In this document: positions 23,402 to 34,212 of the stretch, in pieces | How the letters are laid out: each line of letters begins with the position of its first letter | How positions within the stretch are numbered: position 1 is the first letter of the stretch | Origin: an uncultured Pseudanabaenaceae cyanobacterium | Lineage (GTDB): Bacteria > Cyanobacteriota > Cyanobacteriia > Pseudanabaenales > Pseudanabaenaceae | Length of the DNA stretch: 64,000 nt | Assembly (NCBI GenBank): GCA_937927915.1 | Contig: CALGKB010000001.1 | Span: forward strand, 186,001 to 250,000 | Direction of reading: 5' to 3' | Program-made: the position numbers and the translations under genes | Notes under the pieces: model-generated | Database searches by the model: none | What the model was told of the DNA's origin: nothing | What the model saw: the letters and a program-made list of their open reading frames with translations, nothing else

Positions 23402-24961
23402 TCAGAAAAGCTGCCAATTCAAACTAAAATAAATACCGTTCTGTTGCAGTCCCACCTTCTTCATGCCAGGATCGACCAGGGGAATACTATAATCTAGCCA
23501 GGCTGTGAATCTTTCTCCCTGTTGCCATCTCAAACCAACACCAATTCCCCCGATCGTGTTAACGGGGGGCGTTAATTTGCCCGCACTATTCCACCCTACT
23601 CCTCCTTCCAGGAAAGACACCAACTGTAACAAACCCTTTGTTGCAGGAAATTCTCCTAGCGGTAACCGTATTTCTGCCCCCCCATGGATGCCATTGTCGG
23701 TTAACAAAAAATCTTGGCGATAGCCCCGCACACTTTTTACTCCCCCTAAACTAAATTGCTCGATTGCCACCAACGCCTGACTAGCTAACTGCCCATTTAG
23801 CCGCCCAATTAACTGGGTGTTGGTTGCCAGCTGTTTGACATACTGGGCTTGTCCCCGCCACAGAGCAAAAAAGCTATTCTGGGGCAGGTCATTGGTATTG
23901 AGGGCAAAGGGCTGCACCCCCAAGCTCAATTCCGACCGCAGGGCAAGAACATCCTGGGTTGACCGCTGCTCATATTCCTGGCGGAGGCGCACTGCTGTCA
24001 CTCTGGTTCTGCCCTCCATATCAGCGCCGGGGGAGAGGGGAAAGGGGGTAGAAAGGAGGGCAGTTTCGCTTTCTGACCTCGTCAGGGCAATACCTAGGGC
24101 AAATGCCCGATCGGGACTGCGGTAGAGGGGTTGACGGTAGGCAAGTTCGTAGGTACGGGCGTTAGCAAGGATGTCTAGGTCGCTGAAGGGCGGTTCCAAA
24201 ACCTGACTGTTACTCTGGCTATAGTGAAAACCGAGAGTGCCATCCTGGGGATTGAGGGGGAGGGTATAGCCCAGCTCGTAGAGGTTACTGCCGTCAGTGT
24301 TAGTGTATGCCAAGGTGAGGGTATCTCCCCTGCCAGATAGGTTTAGCTCTTGCAGTTGCAGTTGGCGGCGGAATTCCCCTACCCCAGGGGAGCGTTGGTT
24401 GTCTAGGGTGAGGGTACTGCTAAATGTGGGGGCTTCCGTGACGGTAACTTCTAGGATGCTCTTGCCTTCTAGAGGACTGGGGGAGAGTTCGCTGTTGATG
24501 GCTTGGATGCGGGGGTTGAGTTGCAGGAGTTGTAATGCTTGCAGTAGGTCATTGCGGTTGAGGGGAGTAGGGGTCTGCACCCGATCGATGATGTAGCTGG
24601 GCAGCAGGCGCTGCACTCCCTCTACTTTGATTTTCTCTAGTCTGCCCTCAATGACTTGAATGGTAACAGTGCCATTTTGGGGAGTCTGGGCGGGAATGTA
24701 GGCACCGGAAGTAATGTAACCCCGATCGATATACAGTTGCGTGATTGCCTGACTAACCTGTTGCAATTCCGTAAAAGTAAGGGGGCGCCCTGTGAAAGGT
24801 TTGGTGATTGCCTCCAGCTCTGCGCGGGAGAAGACAGTACCACCGACAATGTTAAAGTTTTTCACTATAATTCTTTCTGGTTCTTGCCCCAGGCAGGGGA
24901 AGTGGCACAGCAATAAAAGCCCCCCCCCGATCGCTTTTGCCAATAAGTTGCGCACCCCCAT
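23402..24961 (-). CDS. TpsB outer-membrane transporter (ShlB/FhaC/HecB family)
   Basis: A 519-residue two-partner-secretion transporter. It has a signal peptide (MGVRNLLAKAIGGGLLLL...), two POTRA-like periplasmic repeats (about residues 30-190: FNIVGGTVFSRAELEA, then VTIQVIEGRLEKIKVEGVQR) and a beta-barrel. The barrel contains the VRGYRQD motif of the substrate-channel loop and ends with phenylalanine in FSLNWQLF, as BAM substrates do. It should export the TpsA exoprotein made by the divergent gene, whose start is 98 bases away. The gap holds both promoters, which I cannot resolve by eye. Confidence 0.9.
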   Translation of the reverse strand: MGVRNLLAKAIGGGLLLLCHFPCLGQEPERIIVKNFNIVGGTVFSRAELEAITKPFTGRPLTFTELQQVSQAITQLYIDRGYITSGAYIPAQTPQNGTVTIQVIEGRLEKIKVEGVQRLLPSYIIDRVQTPTPLNRNDLLQALQLLQLNPRIQAINSELSPSPLEGKSILEVTVTEAPTFSSTLTLDNQRSPGVGEFRRQLQLQELNLSGRGDTLTLAYTNTDGSNLYELGYTLPLNPQDGTLGFHYSQSNSQVLEPPFSDLDILANARTYELAYRQPLYRSPDRAFALGIALTRSESETALLSTPFPLSPGADMEGRTRVTAVRLRQEYEQRSTQDVLALRSELSLGVQPFALNTNDLPQNSFFALWRGQAQYVKQLATNTQLIGRLNGQLASQALVAIEQFSLGGVKSVRGYRQDFLLTDNGIHGGAEIRLPLGEFPATKGLLQLVSFLEGGVGWNSAGKLTPPVNTIGGIGVGLRWQQGERFTAWLDYSIPLVDPGMKKVGLQQNGIYFSLNWQLF

Positions 24962-25059
24962 TCTTGCCCATCTTGCCTATTTGTAAATAATAGAAAAAAA
25001 ACGACACAAACACTTCACGTATCCCTTACAATCCTCCCACAACCGGAATTGGGGGTGTT

Positions 25060-27651
25060 GTGACATTACGCTATCTCCTCAGCCTTGTCCTAGTGGTATT
25101 GCCAGCGGGGGCACAGATTATCCCCGATCGGTCTTTGGGCAATGAAACTACCAGAATAATACCTGCCAATTTGGGCAATTTAGTTATCGATCGGATAGAA
25201 GGGGGAGCCTTGCGGGGACAAAATTTGTTCCACAGTTTCCAAGAATTTAATGTCAGTGCGGCACGGGGTGTCTATTTCAGTAGTCCTGCCGGTGTGCAGA
25301 ATATCATTGCTAGAGTAACGGGGGACAACCCATCGCAGATTTTGGGCACTTTAGGAGTATTAGGGAGCAGCAATTTATTCCTATTAAATCCCAAGGGCAT
25401 AGTGTTTGGCGGGGATAGTAAACTAGATATAGGAGGAGCATTTATTGCCGCAACCGGTAGCAGTTTTGTTTTTGACAATAACCAGGTATTTAGCGCTGTC
25501 AATCCCCAGGCTCCGCCCCTCCTGTTGGTGAAAACTCCCCTTGGCGTACAGATGGGAGAGCAGGCAGGGAATATCATTAACCGATCGGTTGCTGTCAGAG
25601 ACAATCCCCCTTTCCCCCTTAGCAATCTGGCAGGACTGCAGGCACATACAATCAATTTCATCGGCGGCAATATAGAAGTGCAGGGAGGAATTACAGCAGG
25701 CAAAATTTCCCTCGCAGCAGTGAGAGAGGGTCTAGTAACCTTTAATCCCGATTTCACTTTAAGCTACAATAGTAACTCCGCACTGGGGAATATTCTACTG
25801 GCAGGGGGGCAAATAGATGGCAGTGGCAACGGAGCAGGCACGATCGCTATTAGGGGCAAGAATATCATTCTGACCAACAGTCAAGTTACTGCTTACACTC
25901 TTGGTACAGTGGATGGAGGAGCCATTACCCTCACAGCCGACAAACTCCAGATCAAGCAGTCTATAATTTCTACTACCACCTTTGGCAGGGGGCGGGGGGG
26001 AGATTTAACGATCGAGGCAAGGGAGTCCCTGGGCATGACAGGGGAAGGTGTAACCAAGTTTCGGTCAGTACTCGATCGGTTGTTCTTCCAGGGAGTAGGC
26101 TTCAATGACCCCACTACACCCCCTCTGCGCCAGCCCCAAGATTTTGGCACCGGCATCCTTGCCCTCAGTTTTAGTACAGGAGATACGGGCAACATTACGG
26201 TGGCTACGCCCCAGCTGACCCTAGACAACGGCAGTTTCCTGTCCACCTTGACCTTTGTAGCGGGGAGAGGAGGCGACCTCAAAATCGTGGCACCAGAGAT
26301 CAGTTTGGACGCAGCGCAACTGAATGCCGAAAGTCTCCTGGATGGCAATTCTGGCAACATTCTCGTACAAACGCAAAACTTCAGCGCCAGTACGGGTGCG
26401 GTAGCAGCTGCTTCTACCTTCGGCAGGGGCAAGGGCGGCAACGTTACGATCGTGGGAGTAGATGGCGTTAGCCCCGCTGACCAGATCAAGTTTGCTGGGT
26501 CAATTCCTGATTCTCCTCTGTTTAGCGGCATCTTTGCCAATACCTTTGTGTCGGGGCAGGGAGGGGCAGTCAACATTTTTGCCAGGGATATCCAACTGAC
26601 AGAGAGGGCATCCATCGCCTCAGTGGCACCCGTAGTACCTGATTTGAATATCAATAGTAGCGGCAACGGCGGCAATATCACCGTGACAGCCCTTAACTCC
26701 ATTACCCTGGATGGCAGCAAGACAGAAATTGGGGCAAGGTCAGCCAACACAGGCAATGCAGGGAAAATCACCGTCACCGCCAAGGAATTAAACATCCGCA
26801 ACGACGCTATGATTGACAGTTCCACCGCCGACATTCGGGCAACAGGTTCCGCTGGGGAAATTCTAATCACCGTTGACACACTGCGGTTAGATAACCAAGG
26901 GCGCATCACCGCCAACACCCGATCGGGCAAAGAAGGGAACATTAACATCAACGCCAAGAGAATTGAACTACGCCGTAATAGCCGCATTTCCACAGACGGT
27001 GGGACTTCCAACGGAGGTAACATCACCATCAACAGCAACATTTTGTTAGCCTTTCCCACCCAAAACAGCGACATCACTGCCAACGCCCGCACCTCCGCTG
27101 GGGGCAGAGTGACCATCAACGCCAGTAACATTTTGGGCTTTACCAATTTGCCGCGGGAACAAATCCGTGACCGCCTATCCCTGACAGAGGCAGAGTTTGC
27201 CGCCTTAGAAACTAACCCCGTCCTCCTGTTACCCAGCAGTGACATTGCCGCTATTTCCCAGGCACAAGCCACCATCGAGGGGACAGTCACCTTTAACACC
27301 TCTGGCTTAAACCCTGCTCAATCGCTGGTGGAATTACCCCAGCAGGTCATTGACCCTAATACTTTAGTGGTGAGTCAAGCCTGCAGTCGGGCGGGACAAA
27401 ACTCCTTTGTGGTGAAGGGGAGGGGGGGCTTACCAGAAAATCCCCAGGATGTCCTGCATTTTAGCCAGTTGACCTACCAATGGTTGCCCTTTATCGACAG
27501 CTCAGCCCCAGAGCCAGCCGTTGGCAAACCTGCCCCCACTACTTTTCCGCCCCTTGCCGATGCCCTGATACGCAACGATCGGGGGGAACTGCAACTAGTT
27601 AGCCACGGGGGGACAACTTTTGCTCCGCTAGCTCAACCCTGTAGGAGATAA
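25060..27651 (+). CDS. TpsA exoprotein with filamentous-haemagglutinin N-terminal domain
   Basis: An 863-residue secreted protein beginning with GTG 25060 and a signal peptide (MTLRYLLSLVLVVLPAGAQI). The TPS domain (about residues 20-270) has LRGQNLFHSFQEFNV and NPKGIVFGG, the secretion-signal motifs. The rest is a right-handed beta-helix of imperfect repeats rich in GGxIxITA and GNITV-type units. The tail resembles that of cyanobacterial S-layer-family exoproteins (LVELPQQVIDPNTLVVSQAC then FVVKGRGGLP), with paired Cys residues. It should be exported through the divergent TpsB. No toxin domain or immunity gene is evident, so an adhesin or surface scaffold is more likely. The next gene starts 5 bases after the stop. 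Confidence 0.9.
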   Translation: MTLRYLLSLVLVVLPAGAQIIPDRSLGNETTRIIPANLGNLVIDRIEGGALRGQNLFHSFQEFNVSAARGVYFSSPAGVQNIIARVTGDNPSQILGTLGVLGSSNLFLLNPKGIVFGGDSKLDIGGAFIAATGSSFVFDNNQVFSAVNPQAPPLLLVKTPLGVQMGEQAGNIINRSVAVRDNPPFPLSNLAGLQAHTINFIGGNIEVQGGITAGKISLAAVREGLVTFNPDFTLSYNSNSALGNILLAGGQIDGSGNGAGTIAIRGKNIILTNSQVTAYTLGTVDGGAITLTADKLQIKQSIISTTTFGRGRGGDLTIEARESLGMTGEGVTKFRSVLDRLFFQGVGFNDPTTPPLRQPQDFGTGILALSFSTGDTGNITVATPQLTLDNGSFLSTLTFVAGRGGDLKIVAPEISLDAAQLNAESLLDGNSGNILVQTQNFSASTGAVAAASTFGRGKGGNVTIVGVDGVSPADQIKFAGSIPDSPLFSGIFANTFVSGQGGAVNIFARDIQLTERASIASVAPVVPDLNINSSGNGGNITVTALNSITLDGSKTEIGARSANTGNAGKITVTAKELNIRNDAMIDSSTADIRATGSAGEILITVDTLRLDNQGRITANTRSGKEGNININAKRIELRRNSRISTDGGTSNGGNITINSNILLAFPTQNSDITANARTSAGGRVTINASNILGFTNLPREQIRDRLSLTEAEFAALETNPVLLLPSSDIAAISQAQATIEGTVTFNTSGLNPAQSLVELPQQVIDPNTLVVSQACSRAGQNSFVVKGRGGLPENPQDVLHFSQLTYQWLPFIDSSAPEPAVGKPAPTTFPPLADALIRNDRGELQLVSHGGTTFAPLAQPCRR

Positions 27652-27656
27652 AGGCG

Positions 27657-30092
27657 ATGCGCTGGATCATCTTAGGCTTACTGACTTGTTGGTTGGTTAT
27701 TTACAGTACTCCCTCCCAAACCCTCTCTCCTAGCCAGTTTGAGCCACTGGATCACAGCAACTCCCTACCAGTTTTGCAACAAAAACTACAGCAATATGAA
27801 CGACAAAACGATCGGGTTAATCAAGGCATCGCCCTCGTCAACCTCGCCATCACCTACCGTCAGCAAGGAGCATGGAATTTGGCAGAAAAGAGTGCAGAAC
27901 AAAGTCTAACCCTCCTGACAGGACAACTCCGCGCCCACGCCCTCAACATCCGTGCCAAGTTGCATTTAGAACGGGGCAATCCCCAGGCAGCCTACGAGCG
28001 GTGGACAGAAGCGGCAACAATTTATCAACAGCAGCAGGACAGAGACAGTTGGTATCGGGTGCAAGCCGATCGGAGTTTAGCGCTGCAAAATTTGGGGTTA
28101 TATCCCCAGTCCTGCGCTCTCCTGTGGGAAACTTTGGACTTACCAGGTAAGTGTCAATATTCTGCGCAAATTCTCTCTGTGTTGGAGCAACAGCATATCC
28201 CCCCATCCGCACTTTCCCTATTAGCCCATTTAGGCAGAGTATTGCAGGTATTGGGAGAATTGGAGGGATCAGAGGCAATTCTCAAGTTGGGCATCAAGAC
28301 AGCTACAAATCTCGGTAGTCCCCCAGAGACCAACTATCTGTGGCTCAACCTGGGCAATACCCTACGGGCTAAGGGAGCAGACCACTACCCCGCCGCATTG
28401 ACTGCCTACCAACGATCGGGCTTACTAGAAGGACAAGTCAACCAAATTAGTCTTTTCATCCAGACCAATGAGCTAGAAAAAGCAAAAAACCTGTGGCAAG
28501 CAATCTCCTATCGGGTCATAGATAGTAGCATTACTAGCAAAATCAACTTTGCCCGCAGTGGCATTCAATTAGCGGTAAAATACCAAGAACTCATACCAGA
28601 ATTACAGCGGTTACTAACAGTTACTCTCCAGGAAGCCAAGACCCTCAATCATCCCCGTTTCATTGCCCATACCCTCTTACTGCAAGCAAACTTAGCAGAA
28701 CAAAACCAAGACTGGCAACAGGCAAAGACACTCAATGAATTAGCCCTAAAAACTATTACTGCCCCCGATGTCACCTATCTACTTTTTGCCCAAAGAGGCA
28801 GAATCGCCCAAAAAACTGGTCACATAGAACAAGCCATTGCCGAATACAGCGCTGCTATCCAAGCCCTATCCCAACTGCGCCAAGACCTCGTTAATCTCAA
28901 TACCGATGTACAATACAACTTCCGAGAAGGCGTAGAACCCATTTATCGAGAACTAGTATCTTTACTGTTGAAAAACGATCGTCCCTCCCAAGCCCAACTA
29001 AGGCAAGCTAGGGAAGTTATGGAGTCTCTACAAATTGCTGAGTTGGATAACTTTTTTCGCGATGCCTGTGCTGACACCAAGCCAACAAATATCGATGCCA
29101 TTGATAGTAAGGCAGCTATTTTTTACCCGATTGTGTTACCAGACCGCCTCGAAATTATCGTCGCCATTGCTAAACAGCCCCTCTTCCACACAAGAATTTC
29201 TATCCCCCGTTCAACTCTACGGCAAACTATCCAAGCTGCCCGCAACAGTCTCAGATTAACTGCTTTGCCAGAAGAGAGAATTGCCCCTACTTCTAAGCTC
29301 TATGATTGGTTGATTCGTCCGACAGAAACCCTCCTGCAACAATATCAGATTGAAACCCTAGTTTTTGTCCCCGATGATAGCCTGCGCAATTTGCCCTTTA
29401 GCATCTTGTGGGATGGCTCCCAGTATCTCCTACAAAAATATAACCTCGCCCTAGTTCCTAGTCTGCAATTACTGTCACCGCAACCGATCGGGCAACAAAA
29501 ACTGCAGGTAACAGCGGCAGGACTAACTGCGGCACGGCAAGGCTTTCCCCCTCTGCCTGCTGTGGGAGAAGAAATACAGAACATTGCACAAATATTACCC
29601 ACAAATATAATTCTCAATCAGGAATTCACTACAGGTGCCCTGGGGGCAAAGATAGCAACTAATGCCACCCCCATTGTGCATTTAGCAACCCATGGACAAT
29701 TTAGTTCTGACATCAATTCTACGTTTCTATTGACCTGGGACGATCGGATACAAGTATCAGAATTAGGCTCTATTTTAGGTAGCCGTCCAGATAGTCCTAT
29801 AGAATTGTTAGTCCTCAGTGCCTGTGAAACCGCCGCTGGTGACGATCGGGCAAACCTGGGTATAGCCGGCTTCGCCATCCGATCGGGGGCAAGAAGTACG
29901 ATCGCTAGTCTCTGGGCAGCCTTCGATGATTCAACCGCAATCCTAATGGCAAACTTTTACCAAGAACTCGCCAAACGAGGCACAAGTAAAGCGCAAGCCT
30001 TGCGCAATGCCCAAATCAAGCTTCTAAGGCATGAAACCTTTTCCCACCCCTACTACTGGGCACCATTTTTGTTATTGGGAAATTGGCAGTAG
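27657..30092 (+). CDS. Exported TPR-CHAT protein (caspase-like protease)
   Basis: An 811-residue protein with a signal peptide (MRWIILGLLTCWLVIYSTPS), a long array of TPR helices (about residues 40-440), a helical linker and a C-terminal CHAT domain (about 530-811). The CHAT domain has His679 in HLATHGQF and Cys723 in LSACETA, the expected caspase/separase-like dyad, so the peptidase is probably active. Its target is unknown. ATG 27657 is preceded by TAGGAGATAAAGGCG that overlaps the end of tpsA, so the two are translationally coupled. CHAT proteases are activated by partner proteins in several bacterial systems; an extracytoplasmic one tied to a TPS system is an inference here. Confidence 0.88.
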   Translation: MRWIILGLLTCWLVIYSTPSQTLSPSQFEPLDHSNSLPVLQQKLQQYERQNDRVNQGIALVNLAITYRQQGAWNLAEKSAEQSLTLLTGQLRAHALNIRAKLHLERGNPQAAYERWTEAATIYQQQQDRDSWYRVQADRSLALQNLGLYPQSCALLWETLDLPGKCQYSAQILSVLEQQHIPPSALSLLAHLGRVLQVLGELEGSEAILKLGIKTATNLGSPPETNYLWLNLGNTLRAKGADHYPAALTAYQRSGLLEGQVNQISLFIQTNELEKAKNLWQAISYRVIDSSITSKINFARSGIQLAVKYQELIPELQRLLTVTLQEAKTLNHPRFIAHTLLLQANLAEQNQDWQQAKTLNELALKTITAPDVTYLLFAQRGRIAQKTGHIEQAIAEYSAAIQALSQLRQDLVNLNTDVQYNFREGVEPIYRELVSLLLKNDRPSQAQLRQAREVMESLQIAELDNFFRDACADTKPTNIDAIDSKAAIFYPIVLPDRLEIIVAIAKQPLFHTRISIPRSTLRQTIQAARNSLRLTALPEERIAPTSKLYDWLIRPTETLLQQYQIETLVFVPDDSLRNLPFSILWDGSQYLLQKYNLALVPSLQLLSPQPIGQQKLQVTAAGLTAARQGFPPLPAVGEEIQNIAQILPTNIILNQEFTTGALGAKIATNATPIVHLATHGQFSSDINSTFLLTWDDRIQVSELGSILGSRPDSPIELLVLSACETAAGDDRANLGIAGFAIRSGARSTIASLWAAFDDSTAILMANFYQELAKRGTSKAQALRNAQIKLLRHETFSHPYYWAPFLLLGNWQ

Positions 30093-30183
30093 GAAAACTT
30101 TGTATTGCTAAATTTAGCTTTGACAGAGGGAGCCTTTTGTGGTTAAATTAAAATTATAAGAGACCTTATGGGTAGGGGGGATT

Positions 30184-30648
30184 ATGAAAAAGCTAACTGC
30201 CTGGGCAGTGGGATTACTAGCGGGGACTAGTATTTATTGTGCTGGGGCAGGGGCGGAGAAGATCAACACCGCTCTACTGTTTCAACCACGGCAAAGCAGC
30301 AAACCCTCGCGCACGATGGGAGGAGCCACTCGCAACATTGAACGCTGCGGTAAGAACCCTACGGTTAGTTTTGTTGGCATCCGCGAAGACAGACCGACCA
30401 TAGCATGGCGTTTGGCATCGCACACTGCTCCCCAGGCGGAGGTAGCCCTATTTGACCAGAATGGCAAAGCAGTCTATCAGACTACTATCCCCCTTCTACC
30501 TACTCTGCAGGAAGTGGCAGTCACATTGCCCCCGCATCTGGCAGGGAATCAGGAATACAGGTGGGTATTCTCCCTAGTCTGTCGTCCTCAAGAGCGGCTG
30601 CAAGACCAAACCATTGTGGGTTGGATTGAGTATGTACCTGTAAATTGA
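30184..30648 (+). CDS. DUF928 protein, exported
   Basis: A 154-residue protein with signal peptide MKKLTAWAVGLLAGTSIYCAGAGA. Features shared with DUF928 are the cysteine in IERCGKNP, a middle strand section with VALFDQNGKAVYQT, LPPHLAGNQEYRWVFSLVC and the final VGWIEYVPVN. It looks like a small beta-sandwich exported to the periplasm or surface. Function is unknown. It lies between the CHAT and CHASE2 genes; its stop TGA overlaps the TTG that probably starts the next gene. Length is shorter than many relatives, which often reach 200 or more residues. Confidence 0.72.
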   Translation: MKKLTAWAVGLLAGTSIYCAGAGAEKINTALLFQPRQSSKPSRTMGGATRNIERCGKNPTVSFVGIREDRPTIAWRLASHTAPQAEVALFDQNGKAVYQTTIPLLPTLQEVAVTLPPHLAGNQEYRWVFSLVCRPQERLQDQTIVGWIEYVPVN

Positions 30649-32846
30649 TACTCCGTCGCCCGAGAGGGCAGGGCTGCAAAGGCGGATTTATTTTGGGTGA
30701 CCTGAAGTTGAATCTTCCCTGGTCAGGGCAGAAGCTCTCTACACTTAGGGGAATTTTCTTCATCACTATCTTTTGCAATCTCATTATAGGACTCGCTCGC
30801 TCCCAGGGAGTACTACAAAGGTTAGAACTGTTAGTATTTGATGTTTTTGTCCAGGTTCGTCCCCTAGAAAAACGCCAACCCCGTATTGTCTTAGTGACAG
30901 TCTCGGAGTCAGACATTCAAAAATTAGAGAAATGGCTTCTGGCAGATGCCAAGTTAGCCCAACTGTTACAAAACGTCGCCAAACAAAAGCCAAGGGCGAT
31001 CGGTTTGGACATCTATCGCGATTTGCCAGTCCCCCCCGGCACAGAAACCCTAGAAAGAATCTACCGATCGTTGCCGCAGTTGATTACCATTCAAAAGGTA
31101 GCAGGCACCCAAGTGCCACCGCCTCCCGTCATGGCGGCCTTAGGACAGACAGGGGCTAATGATTTGGTAATTGACCAAGACGGCAAAGTAAGACGTTTTC
31201 TATTGTCTTTAAGGGATGAAAAGGGAGAGATCATTTTATCTTTGGGATTGCGCCTAGCACTGATTTATTTAGCAGAAGAGGGGATTATTCCTACCTCAGT
31301 AGGAGAGGACATTATTTTAGGTAAAGCCAGAATTAAGCCAATTACCCCCAATTCAGGTAGCTACATCCAACAAGATACAGGCGGATTTCAGATTTTAGCC
31401 AACTACGGTAGACTTTATCCTGATTATCCCCGCATTGCCATAACCGATGCCCTAGAAGATAGAATCCCCCTTGGGATTATGACAGACAAAATTGTTTTGA
31501 TTGGCGCGACGGCTGCCAGTTTAGGAGACCGTTTTCAGACCCCCCTCATTTACGAAGCAGATGACTTACCTGGTACACCAGGGGTGGAAATCCATGCTGC
31601 TGTAGTAGAACAACTTTTAAGTAGCGCTTTGGAAGGAAGACCCCTACTTCAATTTTGGTCTGATAGGGTGGAAATACTGTGGATAGTCTTCTGGGGGATG
31701 CTGGGAGGAATCCTAGCCTGGAGCTATGACAAAGGCAAAACAACGATTGGTCTTGCAGTCTTGGGAATAGTTGTTTTAGTGACCAGCAGTTATATCCTAT
31801 TTATTTTCGGTGTTTGGATTCCTGTTGTTCCACCTTTCTTAGCTTATCTTCTGACGTTTGGTGTGGATTTGGCTTACATTTTATGGCAAAACCTTTCCTA
31901 CTCTGAAAGACAACTGGCTGAGTATGCTCTTGCCTTGGAAGAAAAAGTAAAAGAGAGAACTAAAGAACTAGAATCGAAAAATATCCAACTGCAAGAAGCG
32001 CAATTAGAACTAACAGAGAGCTTCGATCGTTTAGCTACTGCCACCAAGGAAATTGGTGACCTCAATCAGAAACTGCAGTCAGAAAATCTAAGAATGAAGT
32101 ATGAATTAGATGTGGCAGGGAAAATACAGGCAATGATATTACCTAAAGCCGATTTGGCAGAACTAAGGGATTTAGATATAGCCGGGTTTATGCAACCAGC
32201 CACTGAAGTCGGCGGCGATTACTATGACATAATTTTTTTACCCGATCGGGTACGAATTGCTATTGGCGATGTCACTGGTCACGGTTTAGAAAGCGGAGTT
32301 GTGATGTTGATGTTACAAACTGCCATTGCCACTATGAGCGAGTTTTCCCCCTTACCTCCTACACAGGTTTTAGCCATAACCAATCGTGTTTTACTCCATA
32401 ATCTCGCTCGCATGAACTCTGATAAAAGCCTTAGTTTGACTATTGTCGATGTAAAAGAGGATACTTTAGTCATCACTGGTCAACATGAAGAGGTGATTAT
32501 CGTAAGGCAGGAGGGCACGATCGAGCGGATCAATACCGATGAGTTGGGGTTTCCTGTGGGACTGGTTGATGACATAGAGACTTTTCTCAATTCCTTAGAA
32601 GTAAATATCGCCCCTGGAGATGTGGTTGTCTTATTTACAGATGGTGTCACAGAAGCAGCTAACCCCCAAAATGAACTCTATGGCATCGATCGGTTATGTC
32701 AGATTGTTTATGACAATAGAGAAAAATCTGCCAAAGACATATGTCTTTTAGTAACAGAAGACGTTCTTAAATTTATAGCAGACACGGTAGTATATGACGA
32801 TATTACACTAGTGGTGATTAAAAAGAAGGACAACTGCAATAATTAA
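30645..32846 (+). CDS. CHASE2 sensor with SpoIIE-type PP2C phosphatase output
   Basis: A 733-residue membrane protein. An N-terminal hydrophobic anchor (GIFFITIFCNLIIGLARS) precedes a CHASE2 extracytoplasmic sensor domain (about residues 60-330). Three closely spaced membrane helices follow (about 345-410), then a coiled coil (about 415-480) and a SpoIIE-like PP2C domain (about 490-733). The metal-binding acidic residues are all present: EVGGDYYDI, IGDVTGHGLESG, LFTDGVTEAAN and YDDITLVVI. So it senses something outside and dephosphorylates a Ser/Thr phosphoprotein inside, probably an anti-anti-sigma-type protein. No such partner is nearby. TTG 30645 overlaps the DUF928 stop; no ATG suits as a start, so the exact N-terminus is uncertain. 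Confidence 0.85.
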   Translation: MILRRPRGQGCKGGFILGDLKLNLPWSGQKLSTLRGIFFITIFCNLIIGLARSQGVLQRLELLVFDVFVQVRPLEKRQPRIVLVTVSESDIQKLEKWLLADAKLAQLLQNVAKQKPRAIGLDIYRDLPVPPGTETLERIYRSLPQLITIQKVAGTQVPPPPVMAALGQTGANDLVIDQDGKVRRFLLSLRDEKGEIILSLGLRLALIYLAEEGIIPTSVGEDIILGKARIKPITPNSGSYIQQDTGGFQILANYGRLYPDYPRIAITDALEDRIPLGIMTDKIVLIGATAASLGDRFQTPLIYEADDLPGTPGVEIHAAVVEQLLSSALEGRPLLQFWSDRVEILWIVFWGMLGGILAWSYDKGKTTIGLAVLGIVVLVTSSYILFIFGVWIPVVPPFLAYLLTFGVDLAYILWQNLSYSERQLAEYALALEEKVKERTKELESKNIQLQEAQLELTESFDRLATATKEIGDLNQKLQSENLRMKYELDVAGKIQAMILPKADLAELRDLDIAGFMQPATEVGGDYYDIIFLPDRVRIAIGDVTGHGLESGVVMLMLQTAIATMSEFSPLPPTQVLAITNRVLLHNLARMNSDKSLSLTIVDVKEDTLVITGQHEEVIIVRQEGTIERINTDELGFPVGLVDDIETFLNSLEVNIAPGDVVVLFTDGVTEAANPQNELYGIDRLCQIVYDNREKSAKDICLLVTEDVLKFIADTVVYDDITLVVIKKKDNCNN

Positions 32847-33045
32847 CTCAATCATCCGATTGCTGGCTTAGTGGATATAACGGTTCTTTTCGATTGATGC
32901 CTTATTCTGGTGGTTTGACAGCAAATCAATCAGGACTGCGTTTTTCCTTCTCTACTCTCATATCTGGATTGGAGTTATAAATACAGCAATTTGCCACTTA
33001 ATGTGATATAATTAAAATCCTATAAGCCCTAGAACTAGGAAAAAC

Positions 33046-33120
33046 ATGAAAACTTACTGCGTCGACTTCACAGAAAAGGTCATTGCAGCTTACCACAATA
33101 AGGAAGACTTCCAAAGATAG
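33046..33120 (+). mobile_element. IS630-like transposase N-terminal fragment
   Basis: A 24-codon stub MKTYCVDFTEKVIAAYHNKE with a TAG soon after, preceded by AGGAAAAAC. It resembles the first helix of IS630/Tc1-type transposases (MKxYSVDLRxKIIxAY). The rest of the gene is not present in any frame immediately downstream, so it is a relic. Confidence 0.45.
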
Positions 33121-33219
33121 TTGGTGCAGAGCAGAAGTGTTGAATGTCAGGAAAGAGGTAGAAAAAAGGAGCCAGAAATGGTATCCTAGCTCTGAGAAAT
33201 AGCAAACAAACTTAAGTTT

Positions 33220-33851
33220 ATGTTAAAACAACTGCGGCAACTTATCAAGCCCTTGCTAAAACTTCTACCCCAAAATGATTATCCTGTTTTGCATTATCAA
33301 CTCTTTGTCCTCCTCTGAATACACTGCATTTTAGATGCAAAAGTTTTTACAATGGGGGGCTTATTCTTTCTCTCAAATCATCTCGGCTTTAAGGTGAATA
33401 TATTTACCTTTTCTAAAGCCTGTAAGCATCGTAGTACTGAACCATTTGAACACATTTTAAGAGAGTTGTAACATCGCCTGCAAAGACAAAACTACGGAGA
33501 GTTTAAGCATTTATTTCCCCTGGATTCTGCTATCATAACTTTAACAAGTAAACTATTTTGGCAACAGCAAGTATACCGAGTAAAACTATCCCTTGGCTTT
33601 GATATAAATGCAGGTAATATTGGTGATGAGATAATTATGACCAAAAAATTGGTAGCCTTGTCATCGAAATGATACCAGAGGATGCGGTTAGCAGCATGGA
33701 TAGAGGTTTTGCTTCTTGGAAATTAATTGATGAAATGTGCAACAGAAACACATTGTTTATTGTACCGATTAGAAATAACATGCAACTCAATCCAGACAAT
33801 CCTAATGTACGGGCGGTTCAATTGTTTAATAAAACAGATAGAAATAGGTAG
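33220..33851 (+). pseudogene. IS4-family transposase, degraded
   Basis: Fragments of one transposase lie in order on the plus strand but are broken by stops and frame changes. They are MLKQLRQLIKPLLKLLPQND (to TGA 33318), then FKHLFPLDSAIITLTSKLFW followed by VKLSLGFDINAGNIGD (about 33500-33630), then EDAVSSMDRGFASWKLIDEM up to about 33851. The block PxDSxxITLTSKLxW and the later MDRGFASW are IS4-type DDE transposase landmarks, covering a catalytic Asp region each. The coding sequence is long dead and its C-terminal part is missing. Confidence 0.65.
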
Positions 33852-34212
33852 GCATTGTACTTTAATGCAAATCTTGGGGGTTGAGCCTCTGGTAGGTTAA
33901 ATCCAACCTTTAATGTTAAGTTTTGTTGCAAAGATTCAACGCTTTTGGGTTGCAAGCACATTATATGTCCACACACGAACCGCTGCTTTTGTAGTTCCAA
34001 TTGTTTGGAGTACAAGAAAAGGACAACAAACCGTGCTGCAAAAGGATCAGTTTACTCATTTCAGGATGATTATTTCTAGTGGTGGATGCTTACTAGACAT
34101 GATGGATTTACTCCACTCAACTGTGATCAAAATGTTTCTGTCCGTAGTTGTAAGACTTTGTTGTTGATCTATGCTAAGTTCAGCCACAGTAAGTTACTCT
34201 GTATGTTGCCCT

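Follow-up and report, generated by a model that had tools for sequence, protein, structure and literature searches.

A five-gene locus was found at positions 23402-32846 of the window, a 64,000-nucleotide stretch of DNA from an uncultured Pseudanabaenaceae cyanobacterium with a genome of 2.4 Mb (GenBank GCA_937927915.1, contig CALGKB010000001.1, positions 186,001 to 250,000). It encodes a TpsB transporter, a TpsA exoprotein, a TPR-CHAT protein that is predicted to be exported, a DUF928 protein, and a CHASE2-SpoIIE receptor phosphatase. The grouping of these genes is not chance. The gene set, in reshuffled form, is widespread through the Cyanobacteria and into loci titled as other phyla. A tentative reading, somewhat short of an even chance, is that a periplasmic CHAT protein cuts an anchor of TpsA and that CHASE2 couples this switch to the cytoplasm. 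Such a system would resemble LapG/LapD and CdrA, with unrelated parts.

The locus and the grouping of its genes

The first-pass annotation described a divergent five-gene unit, and its open reading frames (ORFs), coordinates, and domain names were all confirmed. The five ORFs are open and intact. ShlB and POTRA_2 in TpsB and TPS in TpsA were above their gathering cut-offs, as were CHAT and TPR_12, DUF928, and CHASE2 and SpoIIE in the remaining three proteins. A TpsB with POTRA and ShlB barrel adjoins a TPS-domain TpsA, as in two-partner secretion (type Vb). The tpsB gene diverges, across 98 bases, from the other four genes. The gaps of 5 bases (tpsA-CHAT) and 91 bases (CHAT-DUF928; annotated as about 90) were found again. 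The annotated overlap of DUF928 and CHASE2, 4 bases, is uncertain. It needs a TTG start at 30645, which may reflect the choice of the longest ORF, and an alternative in-frame TTG at 30693, with AAGGCGG ahead of it, would abolish it. The features are as follows.

23402..24961, minus strand: TpsB, POTRA_2 and ShlB outer-membrane transporter, 519 residues (ORF and Pfam)
24962..25059, no strand: divergent intergenic region, 98 bases, presumed to hold the promoters of both sides
25060..27651, plus strand: TpsA exoprotein, 863 residues, GTG start, TPS domain at residues 18-247 (ORF and Pfam)
27382..27642, plus strand: TpsA C-terminal tail, Cys775-Cys861, candidate disulfide-closed periplasmic anchor (by likeness to excerpts of PMC5422565)
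27418..27435, plus strand: GRGGLP motif, TpsA residues 787-792, directly after Cys775
27657..30092, plus strand: TPR-CHAT protein, predicted to be exported, 811 residues (ORF, Pfam, structure model, and fold match)
29289..30083, plus strand: CHAT domain, residues 545-809 (Pfam)
29691..29693, plus strand: CHAT His679 in HLATHG (alignments)
29823..29825, plus strand: CHAT Cys723 in LSACET (alignments)
30184..30648, plus strand: DUF928 protein, short form, 154 residues, N-terminus signal-like by eye (ORF and Pfam)
30645..32846, plus strand: CHASE2-SpoIIE receptor phosphatase, 733 residues, TTG start (the true start may be 30693)
30783..31712, plus strand: CHASE2 sensor domain, residues 47-356 (Pfam)
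32244..32822, plus strand: SpoIIE/PP2C phosphatase domain, residues 534-726 (Pfam)

Linkage was explored in six near-closed relatives, with partners counted within 10 kb and circular shifts as the null. The rows used were 29 of 30 for TPS (one was below the cut-off), 55 of 56 for CHAT (two rows were one ORF), and 33 of 34 for CHASE2 (one match in genome G006 was unlisted); the lengths of contigs C3 and C4 of genome G025 were assumed. TPS was near CHAT in 16 of 29 cases against 1.42 expected (p ~0.0002), and 8 of these 16 pairings were one fused ORF. DUF928 was near CHASE2 (8/29, 0.71 expected) and near CHAT (7/29, 0.97 expected), each with p ~0.0002, and near TPS (3/29, 0.56 expected, p 0.03). 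TPS was also near POTRA_2 (4/29, 0.44 expected, p 0.004). By these pairwise counts, the locus consists of two tight pairs, TpsA-CHAT and DUF928-CHASE2, that are bridged by DUF928-CHAT. Mantel tests between all families were set aside, since they are confounded with species history.

Wider samples were also drawn. DUF928 is present in 83 of 291 cyanobacterial genomes. The best match by score was taken from 40 of these 83, with five near contig ends skipped, and around these 40 anchors there were CHASE2 at 28, CHAT at 24 (fusions to CHASE2 counted), TPS at 11, and TpsB at 7. The CHAT alignment was also run against a genome collection, where the best 80 of 564 loci were named. Among the 39 with 8 kb on either side, 35 had at least one partner (TPS 28, DUF928 29, CHASE2 25, TpsB 11), and 19 had TPS, DUF928, and CHASE2 jointly. 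Across all 80, the counts were TPS 50, DUF928 49, CHASE2 43, and TpsB 20, with the three together at 27. Some further regions were picked partly for the co-location seen in them, and linkage frequencies are therefore given for the other samples only. These regions are pooled in the dyad, cysteine, N-terminus, and tail counts below, which concern gene features only.

The exact order of the window was met again in eight loci, all from one genus in the same family (L027, L029-L032, L058, L061, and L067), from five of the other 28 genomes. It is also present in L102 (Phormidium tenue), where tpsA is doubled. L089 has the same order, but its tpsB lies on the strand of the other genes; L243 and L089 are one contig and count as a single case. 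In the other loci the set is shuffled, even in the congener locus L011. When the CHATs of six of the eight same-order loci were aligned with that of the window, four were 23-25% identical to it and two were 40% identical. Therefore, two CHAT subfamilies occur within this one gene order. The first pairs with TpsA tails whose cysteines are close together (35-38 and 1-2 residues from the end) and the second with a long TpsA tail, with few independent cases for either.

Loci outside the Cyanobacteria were assigned by record title; they are mostly metagenome bins, and single cases may be binning errors. Three loci titled Nitrospira (L159, L160, and L166) have TPS, TpsB, CHAT, and DUF928, and a fourth (L154) has TpsB, CHAT, DUF928, and a partial ORF bearing the TpsA tail. 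TPS and CHAT are present in L156 (Desulfococcaceae), and CHAT and DUF928 in L162 (Desulfatirhabdium). A partial ORF with the tail is accompanied in L163 (Syntrophaceae) by a TpsB-CHAT fusion and a CHASE2-cyclase, and in L164 (Verrucomicrobiales) by TpsB, CHAT, and CHASE2. Pfam confirmed DUF928 in L154, L159, and L162, CHASE2 in L163 and L164, and TPS in L159. A gammaproteobacterial locus, L157, has CHAT with none of the four partners within 8 kb. L137, in a bin whose title (Tatlockia sp.) is gammaproteobacterial, has CHAT, DUF928, and CHASE2. Its CHAT is 40% identical to that of the window, and since this resembles the identity of cyanobacterial CHATs, it may be a misbinned contig.

The CHAT protein and its fusions

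The annotated His/Cys dyad of CHAT was borne out. Alignments of 14 and 36 sequences show no variation at His679 and Cys723, and by sequence the protein has what is expected of CHAT peptidases, a CHAT domain and the dyad. Both dyad motifs were found in 112 of 124 separate CHATs. This count and those of the TpsA cysteines were unchanged after identical copies were dropped. The signal peptide that had been annotated on CHAT was retained in part: the N-terminus passed a 14-residue hydrophobicity test (2.24) and failed the stricter 19-residue cut-off. Of the linked CHATs, 86 of 101 begin with a strongly hydrophobic stretch, as do 13 of 20 with short flanks. The N-termini of several CHATs that fail the test, linked and unlinked, resemble signals by eye. 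The idea that only linked CHATs bear an export signal was rejected, because unlinked CHATs have such N-termini too.

CHAT is also found fused to either secretion partner. Thirteen TPS+CHAT fusions were examined, of which 12 carry both dyad motifs, and three more were found (L218, L227, and L228). The fusion in the window's own genome (L014:2263-5232, contig C5) has 989 residues, both dyad motifs, and a single cysteine past the TPS domain, inside the CHAT domain. L163 encodes a POTRA_2-ShlB-TPR-CHAT fusion, followed by CHASE2. Both termini of the 16-strand TpsB barrel are periplasmic, so this fusion would place its TPR-CHAT part in the periplasm. POTRA-TPR-CHAT proteins without a recognised barrel are present in L042 and L064. 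From the export-type N-termini and the TpsA-CHAT and TpsB-CHAT fusions, it is most likely that the dyad-bearing CHAT works outside the cytoplasm, as the first-pass annotation had proposed.

CHAT domains fused to CHASE2 are of a different kind. Both dyad motifs are missing in 18 of 19 such ORFs, and no transmembrane segment was found ahead of CHAT in 18 of the 19. For these reasons, they probably form a family of receptors with cytoplasmic CHAT pseudo-enzymes. The 19 ORFs, in which CHAT is N-terminal, are L064:5737-8310, L096:16918-19257, and L108:13689-16229, along with 16 others.

The window CHAT was modeled with a predicted local distance difference (pLDDT) of 90 and a predicted TM-score (pTM) of 0.87. 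The best fold match was Csx29 (8eey_B, E 6e-15, query TM-score 0.44), and separase was also among the matches (7nj1_A, E 4e-12). A PDB sequence search with CHAT (phmmer) gave two chance-level matches; this reflects the limited reach of a search with one sequence, as Csx29 was found by fold. Csx29, a CRISPR partner protein of the Craspase (type III-E), likewise carries its CHAT, with a His/Cys dyad, after a TPR part. In contrast, the window CHAT begins with an export-type N-terminus, and its gene is linked to TPS. Ranked second among the fold matches was DdvA, a transmembrane anti-sigma factor (8rw5, E 2.5e-13, low TM-score), a name that appeared in no paper among the literature matches listed.

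The TpsA tail, the receptor, and DUF928

The window TpsA has cysteines at 775 and 861 only. The survey of TpsA cysteines covered ORFs of at least 500 residues with a complete C-terminus and no CHAT fusion. In 63 of 75 TpsA, the part past the signal region (residue 45) holds exactly two cysteines, both in the last 130 residues, and 73 of 75 have a cysteine 20 or fewer residues from the end. The pair was found in 64 of 68 TpsA near CHAT. The loop between the cysteines is mostly ~80-115 residues, with 86 in the window. A model of the tail matches 79 of 93 unfused TpsA versus 3 of 13 TPS+CHAT fusions (Fisher p 1e-5).

In HMW1 and HxuA, a disulfide loop is the periplasmic anchor that locks TpsA in TpsB (excerpts of PMC5422565). 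The window is alike in its TpsB/TpsA pair and in the C-terminal cysteine pair of TpsA, a feature of the HMW1 type, and its tail is a candidate for a disulfide-closed periplasmic anchor. It differs in the usual length of the loop and in the addition of CHAT, DUF928, and a sensor. The GRGGLP tail was considered as a recognition site specific to CHAT and was rejected, since the tail is present in TpsA without a nearby CHAT (11/15).

The last protein of the locus, annotated with all PP2C acidic residues, has the PP2C motifs GGDYYD, GDVTGHG, FTDGVTEA, and YDDITLVV. The outputs of linked CHASE2 receptors vary. In a first set of 24 there were GGDEF (7), cyclase (7), HATPase (3), CHAT (3), EAL (2), Ser/Thr kinase (1), and SpoIIE (1, the window). 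In a second set of 42 there were CHAT (12), cyclase (11), histidine kinase (6), AAA_35 (5), Ser/Thr kinase (3), GGDEF (2), SpoIIE (2), and EAL, TIR, PilZ, and trypsin-like (1 each). Of the 43 listed for the set A5, L091 and L187 were omitted, and L163 was added. Since the outputs vary and SpoIIE is present in 3 of the 66 receptors scanned, it is the CHASE2 sensor that is conserved and not the phosphatase. This changes the annotated reading, in which the cue is relayed by dephosphorylation. The genome has six STAS domain matches (five above cut-off) and eight SpoIIE matches, none of them assignable as a partner.

SiaA, a Pseudomonas biofilm phosphatase, is a membrane sensor with a SpoIIE/PP2C output as well, but the sensor in the window is CHASE2. 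The NCBIfam SiaA match of CHASE2-SpoIIE was weak, 59.5 bits, which is far below the family cut-off of 700. SiaC was not matched in the genome by a search that matched no control genome either. In congener G001, the CHASE2-SpoIIE gene is split between two frames on a short draft contig (L009:1476-3105), either through a sequencing error or as a broken gene. Downstream of CHASE2 in the window, at 33040-34000, there are short broken ORFs ahead of a methyltransferase gene, which resemble transposase remnants by eye.

The DUF928 protein of the window covers profile positions 31-117 of 184, and a comparable short form is present in G001 (31-119). Its annotated export is a call by eye; the N-terminus (1.54) failed both the 14- and the 19-residue tests. 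The model of the full-length DUF928 of L089 (pLDDT 85, pTM 0.76) shows a beta-sandwich with helices after it. Judging from the profile positions, the window protein would comprise the sandwich alone. The best fold matches were modest and comprised the C-terminal domain of MtxA along with modules of the carbohydrate-binding or Ig-like kind (4z29_A, E 1.6e-4, query TM-score 0.41). A PDB sequence search with the DUF928 alignment gave three chance-level matches. A second DUF928 gene of the same genome (L013:7593-9652) and of the congener (L012:7651-9710) lies tail to tail with a SpoIIE gene of 429 residues, with a 4-base overlap.

The nearest description of the set among the literature matches listed is the CHASE2-DUF928 neighbourhood of Nostoc punctiforme, described with WD40 proteins; the excerpts of that paper name no CHAT or TPS (PMC5587647), and the window adds both. 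The full set was not described among the literature matches listed or in the excerpts of PMC2853523 and PMC8406250, and may still be in print.

A possible release switch and its alternatives

In Pseudomonas, the TpsA adhesin CdrA is tethered by a periplasmic C-terminal tail that LapG cuts, and control lies with a receptor in the inner membrane that has a periplasmic domain and is governed by cyclic di-GMP (c-di-GMP; excerpts of PMC5422565 and PMC4694147). The layout of the set is alike, and its CHASE2 receptors often bear GGDEF, EAL, or cyclase domains. However, the protease here would be TPR-CHAT instead of the transglutaminase-like LapG, with cleavage as a proposal, and the receptor is CHASE2 instead of LapD. 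The protease gene is also inside the TPS locus. No LapG family member (PF06035) was found in the 29 genomes searched, with control matches in Caulobacter. A LapD-type receptor was not found at the locus, the part of the genome where it was looked for. We know of no counterpart of DUF928 in CdrAB-LapG-LapD.

CHAT as an anchor-cutting protease is favoured because of this shared layout and the missing LapG. TpsB would export a beta-helical TpsA whose disulfide-closed C-terminus stays behind in the periplasm as a plug in TpsB, which keeps TpsA tethered at the surface. The exported, caspase-like TPR-CHAT would sit at the periplasmic face of TpsB. Its TPR superhelix would dock TpsA, and CHAT would cut the anchor, by which TpsA is released or matured. 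CHASE2, in the inner membrane with a periplasmic sensor, and the exported DUF928 beta-sandwich may relay the state of the switch to the cytoplasm. The output would be the SpoIIE/PP2C phosphatase here and c-di-GMP enzymes, cyclases, or kinases in relatives. The proposal of the first-pass annotation that CHAT acts on TpsA would survive in outline, with the anatomy pointing to the periplasmic C-terminal anchor and not to the surface part. A broader claim is more doubtful. It holds that this is a surface-release switch of several phyla, in which a caspase/separase-like TPR-CHAT encoded in the TPS locus cuts the anchor under an exchangeable CHASE2, replaces LapG/LapD in Cyanobacteria, and has given dead CHATs to the receptor.

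Several observations weigh against anchor cutting. The cleavage, its site, the disulfide, and who senses whom are steps that we infer. In 12 of the 124 separate CHATs, at least one of the two dyad motifs could not be found, and 6 of 12 unlinked CHATs have an export-type N-terminus at the same threshold. The cysteine pair is not specific to CHAT, since 11 of 15 TpsA without CHAT within 3 kb bear it too. In the near-closed genomes, 39 of 55 CHATs are apart from TPS, and CHASE2 is at chance beside CHAT (2/33) and TPS (2/33). The TPR region of CHAT covaries with the TpsA tail (r 0.76), but DUF928 does so as well (0.68); this was rejected as proof of contact, as the DUF928 and CHASE2 controls are nearly equal. 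The five genes in this exact order are found almost solely in one family. Lack of conservation of the order beyond close relatives had been set beforehand as a refutation, and it applies by half: to the order, but not to the gene set, which is widespread.

The main rival is outside-in signalling, which is unlikely on present evidence. The target of CHAT would then be the periplasmic domain of CHASE2, or DUF928, instead of TpsA. The cue would be TpsA or its secretion, and TPR-CHAT would sense stalled or passing TpsA and switch CHASE2. The linkage of DUF928 to both CHASE2 and CHAT is consistent with this, as is the retention of the CHASE2 sensor while the outputs differ. CHASE2 receptors have also captured CHATs without the dyad, so CHAT folds are in use as signalling parts. 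However, the strongest link is TpsA-CHAT, which fuses without CHASE2 nearby, and the chance-level pairing of CHASE2 with CHAT speaks against this rival too. Covariation gave no separation between CHAT cutting the anchor and CHAT acting on the receptor.

It is less probable that CHAT is an exported effector, carried or accompanied by TpsA, that cuts proteins of a neighbour, a predator, or the matrix, with DUF928 possibly protecting the producer. CHAT is the C-terminal end of the TPS+CHAT fusions, the position of the toxin ends in CdiA (excerpts of PMC5422565). Nonetheless, CHAT most commonly occurs as a separate TPR-CHAT that has an export signal of its own but lacks TPS, and TpsB should not export such a protein. 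CHAT recurs as the end domain among the fusions examined, where other end domains were not surveyed, and none of the five locus proteins was matched by PADLOC, a search for anti-phage defence, at E 0.001. An equally improbable case is a loose neighbourhood, in which exoprotein, protease, and sensor genes are co-regulated or travel together without acting on each other. The limited spread of the exact order, the unspecific covariation, and many partial copies (8 of 40 DUF928 anchors had no partner) are in keeping with it. The TpsA-CHAT and TpsB-CHAT fusions argue against it, as do linkage far above circular shifts and the recurrence of the set in records titled as other phyla.

To our knowledge, most of what is known of bacterial CHAT proteins concerns Csx29 (CRISPR) and HetF (cell division and heterocyst formation). 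A conserved class of exported CHATs tied to two-partner secretion would give these proteins a role in surface biology. Passages of a 2017 review state that the genes for maturation proteases appear outside TPS operons (PMC5422565). If the anchor-cutting reading is true, a protease would be encoded within the TPS locus, contrary to that statement. DUF928 gains a testable setting through the set. The switch could also be a possible answer to how surface proteins, aggregation, and film formation are controlled in cyanobacteria that lack LapG.

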